A DNA stretch of 51,427 nucleotides from a virus, in the IMG/VR virus record IMGVR_UViG_3300020183_000117, positions 1 to 51,427 of that record; one strand, 5' to 3'. Positions within the stretch are counted from its first letter, which is position 1, and the number at the start of each line of letters is the position of its first letter. A model generated the notes under the pieces. That model worked only from the letters and a program-made list of their open reading frames with translations, made no database searches and had not been told where the DNA came from. A program made the translations under genes and the position numbers. Shown here one piece after another: positions 7,131-41,613 of the stretch.

Positions 7131-7138
7131 TATAAATA
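7131..7138 (+). promoter_or_regulatory. Late promoter TATAAATA
   Basis: Exact late octamer upstream of the tape measure gene at 7198; predicted +1 near 7144 gives a leader of about 54 bases. It faces the minus-strand box at 7164-7171. Confidence 0.75.
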
Positions 7139-17144: not shown

Positions 17145-17152
17145 TATAAATA
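17145..17152 (+). promoter_or_regulatory. Late promoter TATAAATA
   Basis: Exact late octamer, 9 bases before the ATG at 17162; predicted leader of about 4 bases. Confidence 0.7.
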
Positions 17153-23921: not shown

Positions 23922-25316
23922 ATGACATTAAGAAACTTTAGAGTCAATAAAGGATTATCAGTAGGTGATATCGTAATTGACGCTTCAACAAACAAGATAA
24001 CAGGCTTATCGACCTCAGCACCATCGGCAGACGGTGATGTGGCAACAAAAAAATACGTAGACGACAGTCTATCGGTTTTGAGTCAATATTCAATTCAAGC
24101 AGGCAACTCTGCAGTAACAGTGACTGACACAGGATCAGGGTCAATTGCTATCATGACTGATAGCACTGATGTTGTGACTGTGACTTCTGCTACTACCACA
24201 ATCGCAAACAATGCCTCTTTCAGTGCGGATTTGACCTTAACAGGATCTAACAAAACAGTGACTCTGTCACCAACTGGAACTGGCACAGTGTCAATTGCAC
24301 CAGCTAGCACATTGACTTTAGGTACTGCAGGAGTAACTTCTACTTTGGCAGGTAACATTTCAGCTACCACATCCAACCAGACAGTAACCCTGTCACCGAC
24401 TGGAACTGGTACAGTGACCATTTCACCAGCAGGTGCATTGACCATCAACCCAACTGCGGCTTCAACGATCAACAACACGTCGATCGGACAATCAACAGCG
24501 GCAGCGGGTTCATTCACCACATTGACAGCAAGTTCAACTTCAACCTTCAATGGCGCAGTGACTATTAATTCCGACCTGACAGTGAATGGTACGCAGACCA
24601 TACTTAACACACAAACATATGAAGTGGCAGACAACATGATCGCCATCAACAGCAACGTGTCTTCCGCAGCACAGATGCCAAGATTCTCCGGTGTACACAT
24701 ACACAGAGGCACAGGGTCAGATGCGCTGGAACAAGACGTATATTGGATCTGGGACGATGCATACAACGATGACGCATCCACGATATTCCCAGCAGCAGCG
24801 GGCGGTGCTTTCACAGCCATGAGATCCACCCACAACGAGGGAGCAGGACTGCCAAACGATGATTTCACACTTGTGGACATCCGATGCAGAGTGATCAATG
24901 CCACAGCGACCTCAGCTCAGTACGCGGACATCGCGGAAAGATTCGCAGCAGATGCTCCAATGACCGAAGGCGCAGTGGTTATGTTGGGCGGTGCACAAGA
25001 GATCACAGAAACAGCAGATGAACTTTCTGATCAAGTTTTTGGTGTTATCTCTTCAAAACCGGCCTACATGATGAATGCAGGTGCAGGTAACAATGAATCA
25101 CATCCTTTTGTGGCTATGACCGGTAGGACTCATGTGAGAGTAACTGGTTCAGTAAACAAAGGTGACAGATTGGTATCATCTAGCGTAAAAGGTACAGCTA
25201 GAGCTGCTCGAACTGGCGAATCTATCAATCCTTTCCACGTAATTGGAAGAGCTTTAGAAAGCAAATCCGATGAGGGTATTGGAATGGTAAATTGTTTCGT
25301 TCAAGCAAAGAACTAA
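23922..25316 (+). CDS. Tail-fibre protein with YADIAE C-terminal domain
   Basis: A 464-aa protein. N-terminus ASTNKITGLSTSAPSADGDV then ATKKYVDDSL is a common fibre opening. Two copies of TVTLSPTGTGTV plus PA-rich repeats lie at about 105-175, then LTVNGTQTILNTQTYEVADN. The C-terminal 150 residues begin SAQYADIAERFAADAPMTEG and continue GGAQEIT, FGVISSKPAYMMN and GRTHVRVTGSVNKGD. This YADxAE-type domain ends many marine phage fibres and resembles the self-cleaving fibre chaperone (peptidase G2-like) region; whether it cleaves here is unknown. A perfect terminator follows. Confidence 0.7.
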   Translation: MTLRNFRVNKGLSVGDIVIDASTNKITGLSTSAPSADGDVATKKYVDDSLSVLSQYSIQAGNSAVTVTDTGSGSIAIMTDSTDVVTVTSATTTIANNASFSADLTLTGSNKTVTLSPTGTGTVSIAPASTLTLGTAGVTSTLAGNISATTSNQTVTLSPTGTGTVTISPAGALTINPTAASTINNTSIGQSTAAAGSFTTLTASSTSTFNGAVTINSDLTVNGTQTILNTQTYEVADNMIAINSNVSSAAQMPRFSGVHIHRGTGSDALEQDVYWIWDDAYNDDASTIFPAAAGGAFTAMRSTHNEGAGLPNDDFTLVDIRCRVINATATSAQYADIAERFAADAPMTEGAVVMLGGAQEITETADELSDQVFGVISSKPAYMMNAGAGNNESHPFVAMTGRTHVRVTGSVNKGDRLVSSSVKGTARAARTGESINPFHVIGRALESKSDEGIGMVNCFVQAKN

Positions 25317-28594: not shown

Positions 28595-29335
28595 TATGGC
28601 AAACAAGATACAAATAAGAAGAGACACGGCAGCGAACTGGACTTCAACCAATCCCACGCTGAGTCAGGGAGAGATCGGTTTTGAAACAGACACATATAAA
28701 ATCAAAATTGGAAATGGCTCGTCAGCATGGGCCGATCTAGGTTATTTCACTGCTGCTGGTTTATCGGCAGCTGAGGGTATCACTTTCGTGGGCGATGATA
28801 GCACAGGAACAAGAATTTCAGATGGAGAGACCATTAAGATAGCGGGCGCAGGTTCAGTGACCACGGCAATGAGCGGAGACGTGCTCACAATCACAGGATC
28901 CGGTGGAGGGTCAAACATATTGACAGTGGTCGGAGATGATTCAACAGGAACATCATTTAATTCAGGGGAAACTTTAAAAGTTGCTGGTGGAACGGGAATC
29001 ACCACGGCGATGTCGGGAGATGTACTTACCATCACAGGTGTGCCACAGGCCACTATGACATTTGTGGGAGATGACTCCACGGGCGTTACCCTAAACAATG
29101 CAGAGACATTAAAGATTGCAGGATCGGGCGGAATAACCACTGCAGTGTCTGGAGACACATTGACCATCGATGGTTCCGGAGTGGCCGGCGGTGGCGGATT
29201 TTCATTGAAAGTGGCAGCGGACGATTCCACTGCAAGAACTATCAACTCGGGGGAGACAATACAGTTCGTGGGATCCGGTGGTGTCACCACCACTAGTGAT
29301 TCCGAAGGAAAGATCACCATCTCGGCAGCGGGAGT
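26429..29335 (+). repeat. GDDSTGT repeat family, nine copies over two genes
   Basis: Copies of an about 42-codon unit at roughly 26429-26560, 26567-26690, 28046-28170, 28196-28320 and 28335-28465 in the first gene, and four contiguous copies over 28775-29335 in the second. The core reads TFVGDDSTGT, then GETxKIAG, then TTAMSGDVLTITG. Copies near the gene boundary (28196 and 28775) are almost identical in protein, suggesting exchange between the genes. Confidence 0.85.
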
Positions 29336-29723
29336 GACTGGGCTATACAGCAGGACCACTGCCAACGCGACCACTGCCAGCATAGCAAACGCAGCCACAG
29401 GCAACATCACAATAACAGGATACAAAGGTTATGCACTGTACAAGGTGCAAACATCTGCCGCAGCATGGGTAAGAATTTATGTGAGTACCGCTGCCAGATC
29501 GAGCGATTCGTCAAGGGCAGAAGGAGCAGACCCAACACCGGGTGCTGGTGTGGTAGCAGAGGTCATTACCACCGCGGCACAAACTATCTTGATCAGCCCT
29601 GCAGCGATAGGATACAGCAATGAAAGCACACCATCAACTGATATCTACTGCGCAGTCACCAACAAGAGTGGCTCTACCACAACAATCACAGTAACATTGA
29701 CCCTCGTGGCACTGGAGGTGTAA
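28596..29723 (+). CDS. Fibre protein with Mtd-like N-terminal domain and GDDSTGT repeats
   Basis: A 375-aa protein. Residues 1-50 (KIQIRRDTAANWTSTNPTLS, then GEIGFETDTYKIKIGNGSSA) match the short N-terminal domain found in the major tropism determinant and many phage fibres. Four tandem GDDSTGT-type repeats fill residues 60-245. The last 130 residues are a beta domain with YKGYALYKVQTSAAAWVRIY, likely the exposed tip. It starts 1 base after the preceding fibre gene and ends 1 base before the subtilase, so the three are one operon. No reverse transcriptase is present. Confidence 0.7.
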   Translation: MANKIQIRRDTAANWTSTNPTLSQGEIGFETDTYKIKIGNGSSAWADLGYFTAAGLSAAEGITFVGDDSTGTRISDGETIKIAGAGSVTTAMSGDVLTITGSGGGSNILTVVGDDSTGTSFNSGETLKVAGGTGITTAMSGDVLTITGVPQATMTFVGDDSTGVTLNNAETLKIAGSGGITTAVSGDTLTIDGSGVAGGGGFSLKVAADDSTARTINSGETIQFVGSGGVTTTSDSEGKITISAAGVTGLYSRTTANATTASIANAATGNITITGYKGYALYKVQTSAAAWVRIYVSTAARSSDSSRAEGADPTPGAGVVAEVITTAAQTILISPAAIGYSNESTPSTDIYCAVTNKSGSTTTITVTLTLVALEV

Positions 29724-29724
29724 G

Positions 29725-32460
29725 ATGGCAGACAGGCCCTCAACATCGGCACCCTATATACAGCTAAAGGAATTCTATGTCGTGGTCTATAATTTTGACG
29801 ACTTACAATCTATATACAGTGACTTGGAAACACAGGATCAAACTCCCCCAGGACTGGAACTGACCCGCGCCATTGAATGTGTCGAACGTAGGCCAATGAG
29901 CAGGGGGACCCTTTATCTGATGACCCAGTGGGAAGCCAATCAGCTTAAAACGGATCCACGAATAAAATCAGTAGAAATAAGTCCGAGAACGTTGGGCTCA
30001 ACACCGGAACTATTCGTCGAAGAAGTATCAACCAACACCACAGAACAGACTAGCACGGCATGGGATAAGTCCTTCACCACCTCCAGCAACCATAAGAACT
30101 GGGCCCTATTGCGATGCTGGGAGGGCTCTAATAGAAACGGCTGGGGAGGCTCCGGATATTCAGGTGACGGGGAACAAGCTAGTGCCGCCGTGACAGGAAC
30201 CATAAGACTGACACAGACCGGAAGAAATGTGGATGCAGTAATAGTGGACGAAAACGGATTGCCATGGACCCATCCAGAATATGCATTAAATGCGGATGGC
30301 ACTGGTGGAACCAGAACCGTGCAATACAACTGGTTTCAACACGATCCTGAAGTCAGAGGAATTGCTGCCAGCAATTATACCTATTCATTAGGTTCCCACT
30401 CCACTCATGTGGCCGGCACGGTGGCCGGAAATACCCAAGGCTGGGCTAGAAATGCCAATATCTACAACATTTATTTCGGTGCTGGCGGGGGAGATACCGG
30501 ATACGTGATGGACTACATAAGACAGTTCCATGCAAATAAACCAGTCAACGCAGCCACCGGCAGGAAGAATCCAACCATCTGTAACAACAGTTGGGGTTGG
30601 AGTATCTTCCCAGGGGCATGGAGTTTTAATGACATCACCGCGGTGACCTTTCGAGGTGTAAGAAATGTTCCGGCGGGTGGTATCACAACTTTCAATGGAT
30701 TCAGCGGAGTATGCACAAGCTCAACAAGATTGGCCACATTGGTTAATTTTGAAAACAATGGAAACAGAATCACAACGACAGGCACAGCAGACCAGGGAGA
30801 AGGCAGTATCGTGTCAAACCCATCTTCATGGACCAGAGACTCTAATTATCATGCCAGCATAGCGGGGGTCACACAACCATCGGCCAGCTACAGCATAGTG
30901 ATCAACACCGACACTGTGAATGCAGGTGTGAGAATACAGAGTGACGTGTCGGCGGGAGGCAGTTCCGGGACCACAACTCTCACGACCAGCATTACGGTGA
31001 CTAGACAGAGCGACAGCACCGTTGTGAACACTTTCACGGTGGGACCTGCATCAGACAGCACGGCCAACACAACCAACATCATAGATGAGGAAATCACACT
31101 GGCATCAAAAGGCAATTACACTGTAACCTATGCAACCACAATCAGCAACGCTGGCGTCACATCACCTGTTTATGCCTTTGACATGGACATATTGATAGAC
31201 AACGATCCGTCCATCACAGATGCAGCAACGGTGACCACGCTGGCAACCTCCTTATTGGGCTCAGCTAGCCTTACATCTAGCACGACCCCAACTGTGGGCA
31301 ACAACGACGACGGATATTGGACATTGAATCTGCCTTTCAATGTGAAATTTTTTGGAATCAATTACAATCAGATTTTTGTGGGAACAAACCACTATGTGAC
31401 TTTCGGTGGTGGATCCACTAACTTTAGCAATTTAGGAGAAGCCAATCCTGGATTTCCAAAGATCATGTGGTGTTCATTTGACAACTCGGTGCAGAGGATT
31501 TTCCATGGCACAGAAGGTACAGCACCAAACAGGACTTTTAGAATAAGAGTGGAGGGAAATGCCGGCGACACGGGTACTTTGGGCAGCCCCGGCATGGTGA
31601 ACGAATGGGTATTCTATGAAGCAACTCCAGAACAGATAGACCTCCAATTGGGAGTAAACAACCGTAAAACAGTAAGTGGTAACACTTTCACCACAGCTCA
31701 GCTGAACGCCTGGGGATTTATATCTAACCAGCGTATACCTTATAGGGTCTCCGTATTGGATGAGGATCTAGAGGACATGATCGACGAAGGTGTGATCACT
31801 GTGGGTGCCGCTGGAAATGGCAGGTGGAGGCACGACGTGCCAGGTGGGCAGGATTGGAACAACACGTTCGAGATGGCTAACAGATACCCCGACAGCGTGG
31901 CCAATCCATATCCCTACATGAGAGGCACCAGCCCCACTGCCAATGACTCCGCGGGCGATGGCAGCTCCACCGGAACCTATGACATTCCCAACATCTGCGT
32001 GGGTGCCGTTGACGCAATAAGCGTGGACAAGAAAGTTGTTTTCAGCGATTGCGGAGAAGGAGTGGACATTTTCGCACCGGGCACATTCATAGTAAGCGCA
32101 TATACGGCTGGGGTCACTGATCCGAGATCAGGCAGTTTTTTTGTGAACAAAGTGTCAGGCACCAGCATGGCTTCTCCCCAGGTCTGTGGAGTGCTCGCTT
32201 GTGCGCTGGAAACCTATCCAGAAATGAATCAAGAGCGTGCCAAAGCCTACATCACTGGCATTGCCAAAGCCGATCAGCTGACAGCCACATCCGGGGGTCC
32301 TACTGACATTAGAGATCTACAGGGAGCACCTAACTTATATTTGTTCTACAGGCCCGAAAGACCCTATGATGGCAATGTTTATCCTAAAATCAACTACAAA
32401 CTGCGCCCCGCTAGCGGAGCCGTTTGGCCAAGACCTAGGATAAAAAGAACCTTAAATTAG
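29725..32460 (+). CDS. Subtilisin-like serine protease (S8), virion-associated
   Basis: A 911-aa protein. Catalytic residues of subtilases can be placed: Asp175 (AVIVDENGLPWTHPEY), His228 (GSHSTHVAGTVAG), oxyanion Asn698 (TVGAAGNGRW) and Ser814 (SGTSMASPQVCGVLA). About 400 residues are inserted between the His and Asn blocks, including a beta domain at 525-645 (YWTLNLPFNVKFFGINYN, FVGTNHYVTFGG). Residues 1-160 could be a propeptide or virion-anchoring part. There is no signal peptide, which fits a particle-bound enzyme. As last gene of the fibre operon it may process fibres or digest host surface protein; neither is shown by the sequence. Confidence 0.88.
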   Translation: MADRPSTSAPYIQLKEFYVVVYNFDDLQSIYSDLETQDQTPPGLELTRAIECVERRPMSRGTLYLMTQWEANQLKTDPRIKSVEISPRTLGSTPELFVEEVSTNTTEQTSTAWDKSFTTSSNHKNWALLRCWEGSNRNGWGGSGYSGDGEQASAAVTGTIRLTQTGRNVDAVIVDENGLPWTHPEYALNADGTGGTRTVQYNWFQHDPEVRGIAASNYTYSLGSHSTHVAGTVAGNTQGWARNANIYNIYFGAGGGDTGYVMDYIRQFHANKPVNAATGRKNPTICNNSWGWSIFPGAWSFNDITAVTFRGVRNVPAGGITTFNGFSGVCTSSTRLATLVNFENNGNRITTTGTADQGEGSIVSNPSSWTRDSNYHASIAGVTQPSASYSIVINTDTVNAGVRIQSDVSAGGSSGTTTLTTSITVTRQSDSTVVNTFTVGPASDSTANTTNIIDEEITLASKGNYTVTYATTISNAGVTSPVYAFDMDILIDNDPSITDAATVTTLATSLLGSASLTSSTTPTVGNNDDGYWTLNLPFNVKFFGINYNQIFVGTNHYVTFGGGSTNFSNLGEANPGFPKIMWCSFDNSVQRIFHGTEGTAPNRTFRIRVEGNAGDTGTLGSPGMVNEWVFYEATPEQIDLQLGVNNRKTVSGNTFTTAQLNAWGFISNQRIPYRVSVLDEDLEDMIDEGVITVGAAGNGRWRHDVPGGQDWNNTFEMANRYPDSVANPYPYMRGTSPTANDSAGDGSSTGTYDIPNICVGAVDAISVDKKVVFSDCGEGVDIFAPGTFIVSAYTAGVTDPRSGSFFVNKVSGTSMASPQVCGVLACALETYPEMNQERAKAYITGIAKADQLTATSGGPTDIRDLQGAPNLYLFYRPERPYDGNVYPKINYKLRPASGAVWPRPRIKRTLN

Positions 32461-32487: not shown

Positions 32488-32518
32488 TTGACAGATCTTT
32501 GTTTTCGTGTTATAAATA
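32488..32518 (+). promoter_or_regulatory. Hybrid sigma70/late promoter TTGACA-N17-TATAAATA
   Basis: Consensus -35 TTGACA (32488-32493), 17 bases, then TATAAATA (32511-32518), which serves both as a sigma70 -10 (TATAAA) and as the exact T4 late octamer. Predicted +1 near 32524. The gene could be read before and after the sigma switch. Confidence 0.7.
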
Positions 32519-38505: not shown

Positions 38506-41500
38506 ATGGCATTAACATCACCAGGCGTAGAAATACAAGTTTTAGACGAAAGTTTCTACGTTCCAGCAGACGCGTCGTCCACGCCTTTAATAATCATAGC
38601 AACTGCTCAAGACAAATTGAACGGAGCAGGCACAGCCACAGCAGCAGGCACAAAAAGTGCTAATGCAAACACCGTTTATTTGATCTCTTCTCAGAGAGAG
38701 CTGACTGAGACTTTTGGAGATCCAAAATTTTTCACAGATGCATCAAGCAATCCTCGGAATGGTTATGAGTTAAATGAGTATGGTCTACAAGCAGCGTACT
38801 CATTTCTAGGTATTGCCAACAGAGCTTTCGTACTACGAGCCAATGTTGATCTAGGTCAACTGGTGGACTCTACTAGTGCTCCTACATCAGCACCAACCAA
38901 CGGCACCTATTGGTTAGATCTAAATAAAATAGTCCCTGGGATTTTCGAATGGTCGGCAACAGATCAATCATTCACCACAATCACTCCTATCTATATCACA
39001 TCGACCGATAATTTAGTTGGTGGTGTATCTACAGGCATTCCATTAACATCGATTGGCACTGTTGGGCAATATGCTATCAACACCACTCATGTCACAAACA
39101 AGATTTATTTGAAAACAACGTCCAATACCTGGGTGCAAGTGGGCAGTGCAGCGTGGAAAACGGCCATTGGCGCTAATGCAAAATTTTTACAAGCTTCGCA
39201 CATTAATAGACCGTTATGGAAAACTGCAGAAGAAGACAGACCCACTGGGTCAGTGTGGTTCAAATACACCACTCCAAATGCGGGCGCTGACGTAGTAATC
39301 AAAATATACAACTCAGCCACCAAAGCATTCTCGGAAGTGGATGCCCCTTTCTATTCCAACAATCATGCAGCCATCTATGGAATCGATCCTGTTGGTGGAG
39401 GCACTGGCATCACTGCAGGAACACTTTACACCCAATACAACGTCACCGAACAATCATTGCTAGGCGCGTTCGACACAACAGATAGCCTGGCAGATTTCCA
39501 GGTATTCAGATATGAAGGCGGAAAAACCGTTATCATATCTAAAACCGCAGCAGCCACTTTCACAGCAGGTCATTCAATCAAGATCGCTGAATCAATAGTG
39601 GGACAAGCAGCGTTGGAAGAACAATCAGAAACAGTGACACTTGGTGGCACAGCAAACACTGACTTCGTTGCGGCTATCAATGGTGCGGGATTCGTCAACA
39701 TCGTGGCGGAAATTACTAGTGATAATTTTATTAAAATCACACACAACAAAGGTGGAGACTTCAGAATGTTTGACGTGGATTCGGGCACTGCACTTTCAGA
39801 TGCCGGATTCGGCGCTGCGGCTGCTCACAGCTACGGAACCTACACAGCAAATTCAAGCACATTGGTAGACAATTTGTATGACGTCCCAGCTGGTGCTACG
39901 GAAGATTCCACAGCTCCTGCCACAGTGATGGCTTCTAACTGGAAGCGCTTGAGCTACACAGCTTCAGTGACTGCTCCCAGCAACGAACCAGCAGATGGAA
40001 CTTTATGGTACAACTCAGGCACAGACGCTGACATCCTAGTACACAACGGCACAACATTCGTTGGATACAAAAATGGAACCACCGCTTCACAATCAGGTGG
40101 ATCATTGGCAACTACCGACCCCAATGGCCCGCAATTGACAGCAACGAAACCTACCACACAGTCAGATGGTACTGCATTGGTGAACGGTGACTTATGGATT
40201 GACTCCAGTGATACAGAAAACTATCCAAAACTTTACAGATATGACACCACCTTAGCAGATGGTGCAGATTTTGTGTTGATAGACAAAAGTGATCAAACCA
40301 CCGGAGCCGGCATACTATTTGCCGATGCAAGGTGGAACAAGGCGGCAGGAAGAACTGATTCAAACTCAGTGGGCGGAACCGGCGATGCTGGCAGCATCAA
40401 AGATCTTCTGTCTGATAACTTCTTAGATCCTGATGCTCCGGATCCAGCACTGTATCCAAAAGGTATGCTGCTATGGAACACCAGAAGGTCTGGTTTCAAC
40501 GTGAAAGAATATAAAAACAATCACATAACCACTGTCAAATATCCAGGATCTGGATCAAGCGGCAAAGGTAACACAAGATTCAACAGCAACGAGAGCGTGG
40601 CCACATATTTCAAAGATAGATGGGTGACCAAAAACGCCAACAACGCGGATGGCTCAGGCACATTTGGCAGAAAAGCTGTGAGAAAAGTAATTGTACAACA
40701 ATTGAAATCAGAGATCAATACCAACCAGGCCATCAGAGAAGACCAAAGAGGCTTCAACCTCATCGCTTGTCCTGGATATCCAGAATTGATTTCTGAAATG
40801 GTGAATCTAAATGCCGACAGAAACTACACTGGATTCATATTGGGGGACACTCCATTCAGACTGGCCAGCACGGCAACAGCAATCACTAACTGGTCGAACA
40901 ACTCTGCCAACGCCGCAGACAACGGTGAAGATGGCTTGACTACTTCCAGTGAATATATGGGAGTGTTTTATCCATCGGGAAGAACCACAGACAATAAAGG
41001 AAAAATCATCGTGGTTCCACCAAGTCACATGATGCTGAGAGTGTTAGCGAACAATGACAATGTGGGATTCCCATGGTTTGCACCAGCTGGTACTAGAAGA
41101 GGCGTGGTTAACAATGCACAATCTGTAGGATACATTGATGCTACTACAGGGGAATTTCAAACAGTATCCTTGACTGAATCTGTGAGAGACAGCATGCATA
41201 CTGTGAAAATAAATCCAATCACAGCATTCGCAGGAGCCGGCATCGTCAATTTTGGTAACCTGACAAAAGCTGCCGGAAGTTCATCTCTGGATAGAATCAA
41301 CGTTGCAAGATTGACTGTTTTCCTAAGAACACAATTAGACAGAATAGCCCAGCCGTTTATTTTTGAACCCAACGATACCTTGACAAGAAATGAAATCAAA
41401 TCAGCTATCGACTCATTCTTGTTAGAATTGGTGGGTAAGAGAGCTTTATATGACTTCTTAGTAGTATGTGACGAGGGTAACAATACTGCTGCTAGAATAG

Positions 41501-41613
41501 ACAGAAACGAACTGTATGTGGACATAGCGATTGAACCTGTGAAATCGGTAGAGTTCATCTACATACCGTTGAGAATTAAAAACACAGGTGAAATAGCGAA
41601 ACTTGGAGTATAA
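38506..41613 (+). CDS. gp18: Tail sheath protein gp18
   Basis: The contractile sheath subunit. N-terminus SPGVEIQVLDESFYVPADAS, then PLIIIATAQDK and YELNEYGLQAAYSFLGIANR match gp18. The C-terminal part (IAQPFIFEPNDTLTRNEIKS; ending VEFIYIPLRIKNTGEIAKLG) forms the conserved contractile core. At 1035 aa it far exceeds T4 gp18 (659 aa); residues about 128-670 include at least five short modules of the form G-x-LW-...-LYxYDG. These are probably surface-exposed insertions. Strong ribosome site; 3 bases before gp19. Confidence 0.93.
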   Translation: MALTSPGVEIQVLDESFYVPADASSTPLIIIATAQDKLNGAGTATAAGTKSANANTVYLISSQRELTETFGDPKFFTDASSNPRNGYELNEYGLQAAYSFLGIANRAFVLRANVDLGQLVDSTSAPTSAPTNGTYWLDLNKIVPGIFEWSATDQSFTTITPIYITSTDNLVGGVSTGIPLTSIGTVGQYAINTTHVTNKIYLKTTSNTWVQVGSAAWKTAIGANAKFLQASHINRPLWKTAEEDRPTGSVWFKYTTPNAGADVVIKIYNSATKAFSEVDAPFYSNNHAAIYGIDPVGGGTGITAGTLYTQYNVTEQSLLGAFDTTDSLADFQVFRYEGGKTVIISKTAAATFTAGHSIKIAESIVGQAALEEQSETVTLGGTANTDFVAAINGAGFVNIVAEITSDNFIKITHNKGGDFRMFDVDSGTALSDAGFGAAAAHSYGTYTANSSTLVDNLYDVPAGATEDSTAPATVMASNWKRLSYTASVTAPSNEPADGTLWYNSGTDADILVHNGTTFVGYKNGTTASQSGGSLATTDPNGPQLTATKPTTQSDGTALVNGDLWIDSSDTENYPKLYRYDTTLADGADFVLIDKSDQTTGAGILFADARWNKAAGRTDSNSVGGTGDAGSIKDLLSDNFLDPDAPDPALYPKGMLLWNTRRSGFNVKEYKNNHITTVKYPGSGSSGKGNTRFNSNESVATYFKDRWVTKNANNADGSGTFGRKAVRKVIVQQLKSEINTNQAIREDQRGFNLIACPGYPELISEMVNLNADRNYTGFILGDTPFRLASTATAITNWSNNSANAADNGEDGLTTSSEYMGVFYPSGRTTDNKGKIIVVPPSHMMLRVLANNDNVGFPWFAPAGTRRGVVNNAQSVGYIDATTGEFQTVSLTESVRDSMHTVKINPITAFAGAGIVNFGNLTKAAGSSSLDRINVARLTVFLRTQLDRIAQPFIFEPNDTLTRNEIKSAIDSFLLELVGKRALYDFLVVCDEGNNTAARIDRNELYVDIAIEPVKSVEFIYIPLRIKNTGEIAKLGV
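38890..40520 (+). repeat. Insertion region of five display-like modules in the sheath gene
   Basis: Modules start near 38890 (APTNGTYWLDLN), 39235 (DRPTGSVWFKY), 39965 (EPADGTLWYNSG), 40140 (ALVNGDLWIDSSD) and 40420 (YPKGMLLWNTRR). Each has a Gly-x-(L/Y/V)-W start and an aromatic strand 15-25 residues later. They are diverged in DNA. Confidence 0.55.

Follow-up and report, generated by a model that had tools for sequence, protein, structure and literature searches.

The window, the 51,427-nucleotide stretch of DNA from a large aquatic virus of bacteria analysed here, carries a gene of 911 aa at positions 29725-32460, directly behind a fibre gene of 375 aa at 28596-29723. Both lie on the plus strand, as do all features within them given below. 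The coordinates agree with those of the first-pass annotation, and so does the assignment to the subtilases (family S8): the whole protein matched Pfam Peptidase_S8 (PF00082) with E = 3.2e-16 and 59.9 bits against a Pfam cut-off of 21.8 bits, and its N-terminal half by itself was recognized above the cut-off (27.9 bits, E = 1.8e-6). The protein also matched PHROG_9158, a family of cyanophage subtilases, with E = 1.5e-85 over prodomain and core, and tblastn gave 39-42% identity to the subtilases of S-CREM1, S-H38 and Sf-FR1. Judged by sequence and structure model together, the 911-aa protein is a genuine subtilase.

The gene is the last of a late fibre cluster, as had been proposed. One nucleotide separates the fibre stop from the subtilase start, no T4-type late promoter (TATAAATA) was found at this junction in a window-wide site scan, and the promoter at 32511-32518 (plus strand) belongs to the next gene and marks the end of the fibre unit. 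Another copy precedes the cluster at 17145-17152 (plus strand). The promoter motif was enriched in the window, with 6 sites against 1.3 expected (0 of 100 shuffles); these lie at 7131, 17145, 32511 and 42300 on the plus strand and at 960 and 7164 on the minus strand. A late sigma factor gene lies at 1039-1968. The N-terminus of the subtilase was inspected by eye and showed no hydrophobic, signal-like stretch, in agreement with the annotated lack of a signal peptide.

The capsid protein of the window shares 66-69% identity with its counterparts in the jumbo phages Phosso (69%), Vibrio 2.275.O and PA5oct, and the terminase is 55% identical to that of PA5oct. The window is therefore part of the genome of a T4-related phage, probably a jumbo one, rather than of a cyanophage. 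It also encodes a very large tail sheath protein of 1035 aa (38506-41613), which matched the unusually long sheath family PHROG_10581.

Catalytic core and prodomain

The subtilase core is encoded in two parts. Residues 106-311 (30040-30657) hold D175 (30247-30249), H225 (30397-30399) and the substrate-binding SWG strand (residues 289-291; 30589-30597), and residues 656-885 (31690-32379) hold the oxyanion N698 (31816-31818) and the nucleophile S814 (32164-32166), giving the catalytic order Asp-His-Ser plus the oxyanion Asn. The catalytic set had been annotated as Asp175/His228/Asn698/Ser814, of which all but the histidine were retained. In subtilases the catalytic His is the first His of HGTHVAG. 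In the window protein H225 is the first His of HSTHVAG and aligns with the first His of HGTHVAG in keratinase, while H228 is the second. D175, H225, S289, G291, N698 and S814 were invariant in all 87 homologues (down to about 40% identity), and H228 was replaced by N or G in 4 of them. Since H225 aligns with the keratinase residue and is invariant, and H228 varies, the catalytic His is assigned to H225. Among 78 homologues 34 columns were invariant and these included all four catalytic residues; by our estimate, four random columns of about 560 would all be invariant with a chance of about 1 in 70,000.

Two structure models were obtained. The first was built on 22 sequences of the long class (see below) and had a poor core (pLDDT 56.7). 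The second was built on 78 sequences of both classes and reached a mean pLDDT of 85.6; its pTM of 0.56 leaves some doubt about how the domains are placed relative to one another. Residues 106-885 of the model superposed on keratinase 5wsl with Z 34.2 and an rmsd of 2.4, aligning 274 of 282 residues and leaving out just the prodomain and the insertion of the model. The top 17 structural matches were all proteinase K-like (Z 31.7-34.2), and other S8 groups followed at Z 28.7-30. According to the model, the protein has a complete subtilase fold, most like that of the proteinase K-like enzymes; the broken active site that would have spoken against the annotation did not appear at the level of the predicted fold. 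Catalytic competence of the subtilase is well supported by the conserved residues and the modelled core.

Residues 14-88 (29764-29988), about which the first-pass annotation was silent, are predicted in both models to fold like the inhibitory prodomain of subtilisins (beta-alpha-beta-beta-alpha-beta, inhibitor I9-type); in the second model the strands and helices span 14-85. The first model aligned from residue 13-14 on to pro-subtilisin E (3whi) and to PCSK9 with its prodomain. A Pfam search of residues 1-302 gave no match other than S8 at E<=1, I9 included, using search filters that discard weak matches. The prodomain is kept in both classes, and its residues R48, S59 and E70 were invariant in 78 homologues. 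It is followed by a low-confidence linker of residues 90-105 (29992-30039; pLDDT <50 at 90-103). Model residue 106 aligns with the first residue of mature keratinase and proteinase K, and residue 112 with PCSK9 residue 153. Because mature residue 1 of the proteinase K-like enzymes falls at 106, the prodomain would be cleaved off in this linker, between about 90 and 106.

The nested insertion and the C-terminal tail

About 400 residues had been described as inserted between the His and Asn blocks. The insertion is real, with a different extent: about 470 residues lie between the blocks, of which about 340 (residues ~312-655; 30658-31689) are insertion and the rest is normal core. The inserted sequence sits in one hairpin, after SWG and ahead of the helix that leads to Asn698. 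In the main alignment, the stretch from position 300 to position 668 had either 359-371 residues (long class; 368 in the window protein) or 34-51 residues (short class), with no intermediates. The short class has the same hairpin ('VTYRG ... RxP'). The long class formed one clade on the core tree (37 of 37, support 0.988), so the insertion was gained once. A third length of about 235 residues was found in the same hairpin of the upstream paralogues of tandem pairs, so this hairpin took up extra sequence on more than one occasion. In three short-class subtilases (L139, L144 and L145) the part ahead of SWG is longer by about 115 residues, which points to a possible second insertion site. One long-class subtilase (L164) comes from a Rickettsiales MAG (MED657), where its 58-kb contig may be of phage origin; it hints weakly at a host.

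The insertion is modelled as two domains. Domain A (residues ~328-508; 30706-31248) is a predicted beta-sandwich with confident beta strands in both models; the insertion including domain A gave no Pfam or PHROG match, and no PA domain was found by Pfam. Domain B (~515-650; 31267-31674) is a tail-fibre-type beta domain, so that the virion-type beta domain of the earlier description is borne out for the second half of the insertion. By tblastn it matched QPX48297 of S-SRM01 (E = 1e-13), a protein that was also a BFVD structural match, and tail fibre proteins of Stenotrophomonas phage AXL_1 (E = 1e-4) and Xanthomonas phage DoCa6 (E = 3e-4).

All parts of the protein are under purifying selection, with dN/dS of 0.03-0.20 against the two closest relatives. 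In this comparison the insertion and core gave 0.08-0.20, and the C-terminal tail gave the lowest values of the protein (0.03-0.04). This conserved C-terminal region (residues 861-911; 32305-32457) has the motif RPxxGxVxPRxRI, and R879, G883, R894, G898, P902 and R903 were at least 90% conserved in both classes. From its sequence conservation, the region is a possible docking tail. An extra terminal domain with a CQFHGGM motif and a weak likeness to plastocyanin/azurin (E = 0.057) was seen at the C-terminus of the L080 subtilase and in L211 (13135-15207).

The cyanophage proteins annotated as 'subtilisin-like serine protease' (PHROG_9158; S-CREM1, S-H38, S-WAM2, Sf-FR1 and PSSM2_297 of P-SSM2) share the homologous prodomain, core, catalytic set and C-terminal tail. 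They also stand behind a fibre, which outside P-SSM2 and S-SCSM1 ends in the same C-terminal domain, but are about 330 residues shorter in the one hairpin (34-51 against 368 residues). On the sequence evidence the window protein lacks their compact architecture and is a variant of this group, not a plain member. The proteinase K-like subtilases (keratinase 5wsl, aqualysin I, proteinase K) have the whole catalytic fold in common with it (Z 32-34), but they are secreted cellular enzymes without nested fibre-type domains or a fibre partner. PCSK9 likewise combines a prodomain with the subtilase fold (Z ~29-30), but is an animal cellular protein without such a nested insertion. In AprV2 of Dichelobacter nodosus, substrate is bound off the catalytic centre by an insertion next to the active site (PMC2991261); this is a 21-residue loop between strand 1 and helix 2, whereas here two domains stand behind the SWG strand. 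The jumbo phages Atu_ph07 and Phosso have S8 genes of their own near tail-fibre genes, as here, but these proteins of 1251 and 1287 aa show no more than a weak match to its catalytic core (E = 0.04 and 6e-4, respectively).

The upstream fibre and its C-terminal domain

The fibre encoded directly upstream has Mtd_N at its N-terminus (PF18454, E = 4.4e-18) and ends in a conserved domain of residues ~249-375 (29340-29720). We compared 83 subtilase loci of both classes, the window included and some contigs near-identical, which makes the independent cases fewer; in 80 of them the upstream ORF was a fibre whose stem varied while its C-terminal domain, about 125 residues long, was the same, spaced mostly by 1 nt from the subtilase. 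In one exception (L068) a second subtilase stands between, and the fibre with the conserved domain lies ahead of that second subtilase. In the other two, P-SSM2 and S-SCSM1, the upstream gene has a different C-terminal domain that is common to both. The link between the subtilase and the fibre is well supported. A correlation between fibre-domain and protease distances (r 0.52-0.66) was not taken as coevolution, since it was obtained without a control gene and shared ancestry fits it too.

The fibre C-terminal domain is not confined to subtilase loci. In S-BM3, Sf-CH1b, S-SCSM1 and ACG-2014i it directly precedes one unrelated protein family, ACG-2014i having one fibre of each sort, and it also occurs in siphophages that have no protease neighbour. 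Because the domain precedes an unrelated family, or no protease at all, it looks from these sequence comparisons like a connector whose partners can be exchanged, and not like a cutting tag. An Arg at the point where the fibre stem meets the C-terminal domain was conserved in 0.99 of 80 fibres; it was rejected as a subtilase-specific cleavage site, since it is also found in most fibres without a subtilase partner. The unrelated partner family has 600-780 aa (L206, 5302-7128; L207, 5308-7605; L210, 5313-7283; L211, 8312-10642), and its member S-SCSM1_232 carries a virion protein tag. Behind the same fibre domain in S-CAM1 (L205, 5308-7563) stands a 'proximal tail fiber protein', which is a strongly diverged subtilase (E = 3.5e-10).

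Tandem subtilases behind one fibre were found at four loci (L068, 2156-7339; L069, 1451-6399; L072, 7300-12535; L073, 7847-13008); the last three had been considered interrupted genes and are in fact two subtilases each. The first copy of the pair has the insertion of about 235 residues and a Pro to Ala change in GTSMASP (the Ser block was not recovered in L069), and the second copy is of the window type.

S-SCSM1_228 is a distant S8 relative of 1411 aa and other architecture, and is tagged 'virion protein' in its record. We counted 48 CDS with this tag, which is missing from several predicted structural genes; 45 virion proteins were reported by mass spectrometry (PMC9602691). The tag of S-SCSM1_228 probably stands for mass-spectrometry detection, although the two counts differ.

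Possible roles of the subtilase

Three roles had been put forward for the protein: maturation of fibres, degradation of a host surface layer, or action after release. The second is now the leading reading, and the first has become less likely because of the partner-independent fibre C-terminal domain. The subtilase probably belongs to the virus particle and may cut host-surface proteins. We propose, at about even chances, that it is a virion-borne zymogen at a fibre tip, cutting host-surface proteins with the insertion as recognition site. The subtilase would be a late product of the phage, made along with the short fibre of the gene just upstream. Its prodomain (residues 14-88) would aid folding and hold the enzyme inactive, until the enzyme cuts it off near residues 90-105. 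The mature protease would then sit at the fibre end, held by the conserved C-terminal domain of the fibre and probably also by its own conserved C-terminal tail. Upon cell contact it would cut host-surface proteins, and the two inserted domains beside the substrate-binding strand would form the recognition site that selects the target.

This reading rests on the invariant catalytic set, the complete predicted fold, the prodomain, the fibre neighbour, purifying selection and the occurrence of the fibre's C-terminal domain before a second partner family as well, together with the fibre-type domain B, the virion-tagged S-SCSM1_228 and the S8 genes near the fibres of Phosso and Atu_ph07. Receptor-binding parts are often hypervariable; the insertion is not, which counts against a recognition role. 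A search of mainly open papers found no description of a phage with a fibre-tip subtilase, and so no direct precedent for the reading.

A maturation protease would act in trans inside the cell, cutting the fibre encoded upstream or further tail proteins, as a stand-alone counterpart of self-cutting fibre chaperone domains. The strict position 1 nt behind a single fibre gene, the apparent lack of a signal peptide and the conserved border Arg agree with it. Peptidase_G2 is such a self-cutting chaperone domain, and another fibre gene of the cluster (23922-25316) matched it with E = 2.4e-6, so that fibre processing probably exists in the window phage. However, the fibre C-terminal domain, mostly with its border Arg, is equally kept before the unrelated partner and where there is no protease, and a fibre-type insertion of 340 residues is unneeded for maturing one neighbour. 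We consider this explanation rather unlikely. PCSK9 acts by binding after one self-cleavage, and the window protein could likewise keep catalysis for removal of its own prodomain alone, the prodomain staying bound and the protein serving as a fibre-tip adhesin. The conservation of the prodomain in both classes, the structural matches to PCSK9 (prodomain included in the case of the first model) and the fibre-type half of the insertion would fit such a binder. On the other hand, the substrate-binding strand and the adjacent core are kept as in active proteases, and the nearest structural matches are active proteinase K-like enzymes, which makes a pure binder improbable.

Release at lysis alone, with the protease acting in the lysate on, say, debris in which new virions would be caught, fits the late expression and the absence of an export signal. 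But it leaves unexplained the fixed fibre pairing, the virion tag of the homologue and the fibre-type insertion, and we regard it as very improbable compared with a protease carried at the fibre tip.

Subtilases were already annotated in cyanophage tail clusters, PSSM2_297 being recorded with PF00082. As far as we found in open papers, the new elements are the form with two nested domains, which arose once, together with the prodomain, the constant fibre partner and its proposed connector, and a further family of partners. Phage particles carry enzymes against sugars and the cell wall. In a review of tailed-phage enzymes against cell barriers the word protease does not occur (PMC6116005). Cyanophages cultured on laboratory hosts carry the short form, which makes the question open to direct experiment. 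A protease carried on a fibre would let a phage past protein layers and might contribute to host range. More tentatively, and at somewhat less than even chances, the locus may be part of a modular system of a fibre connector with exchangeable tips, in which the zymogen of one lineage has taken up two fibre-type domains beside its substrate cleft and become a targeted protease that opens the protein coats of hosts, a protein-directed counterpart of phage-borne polysaccharide depolymerases. The proposed connector, with its two unrelated partner families, also offers a way to study how aquatic phages swap tip proteins.
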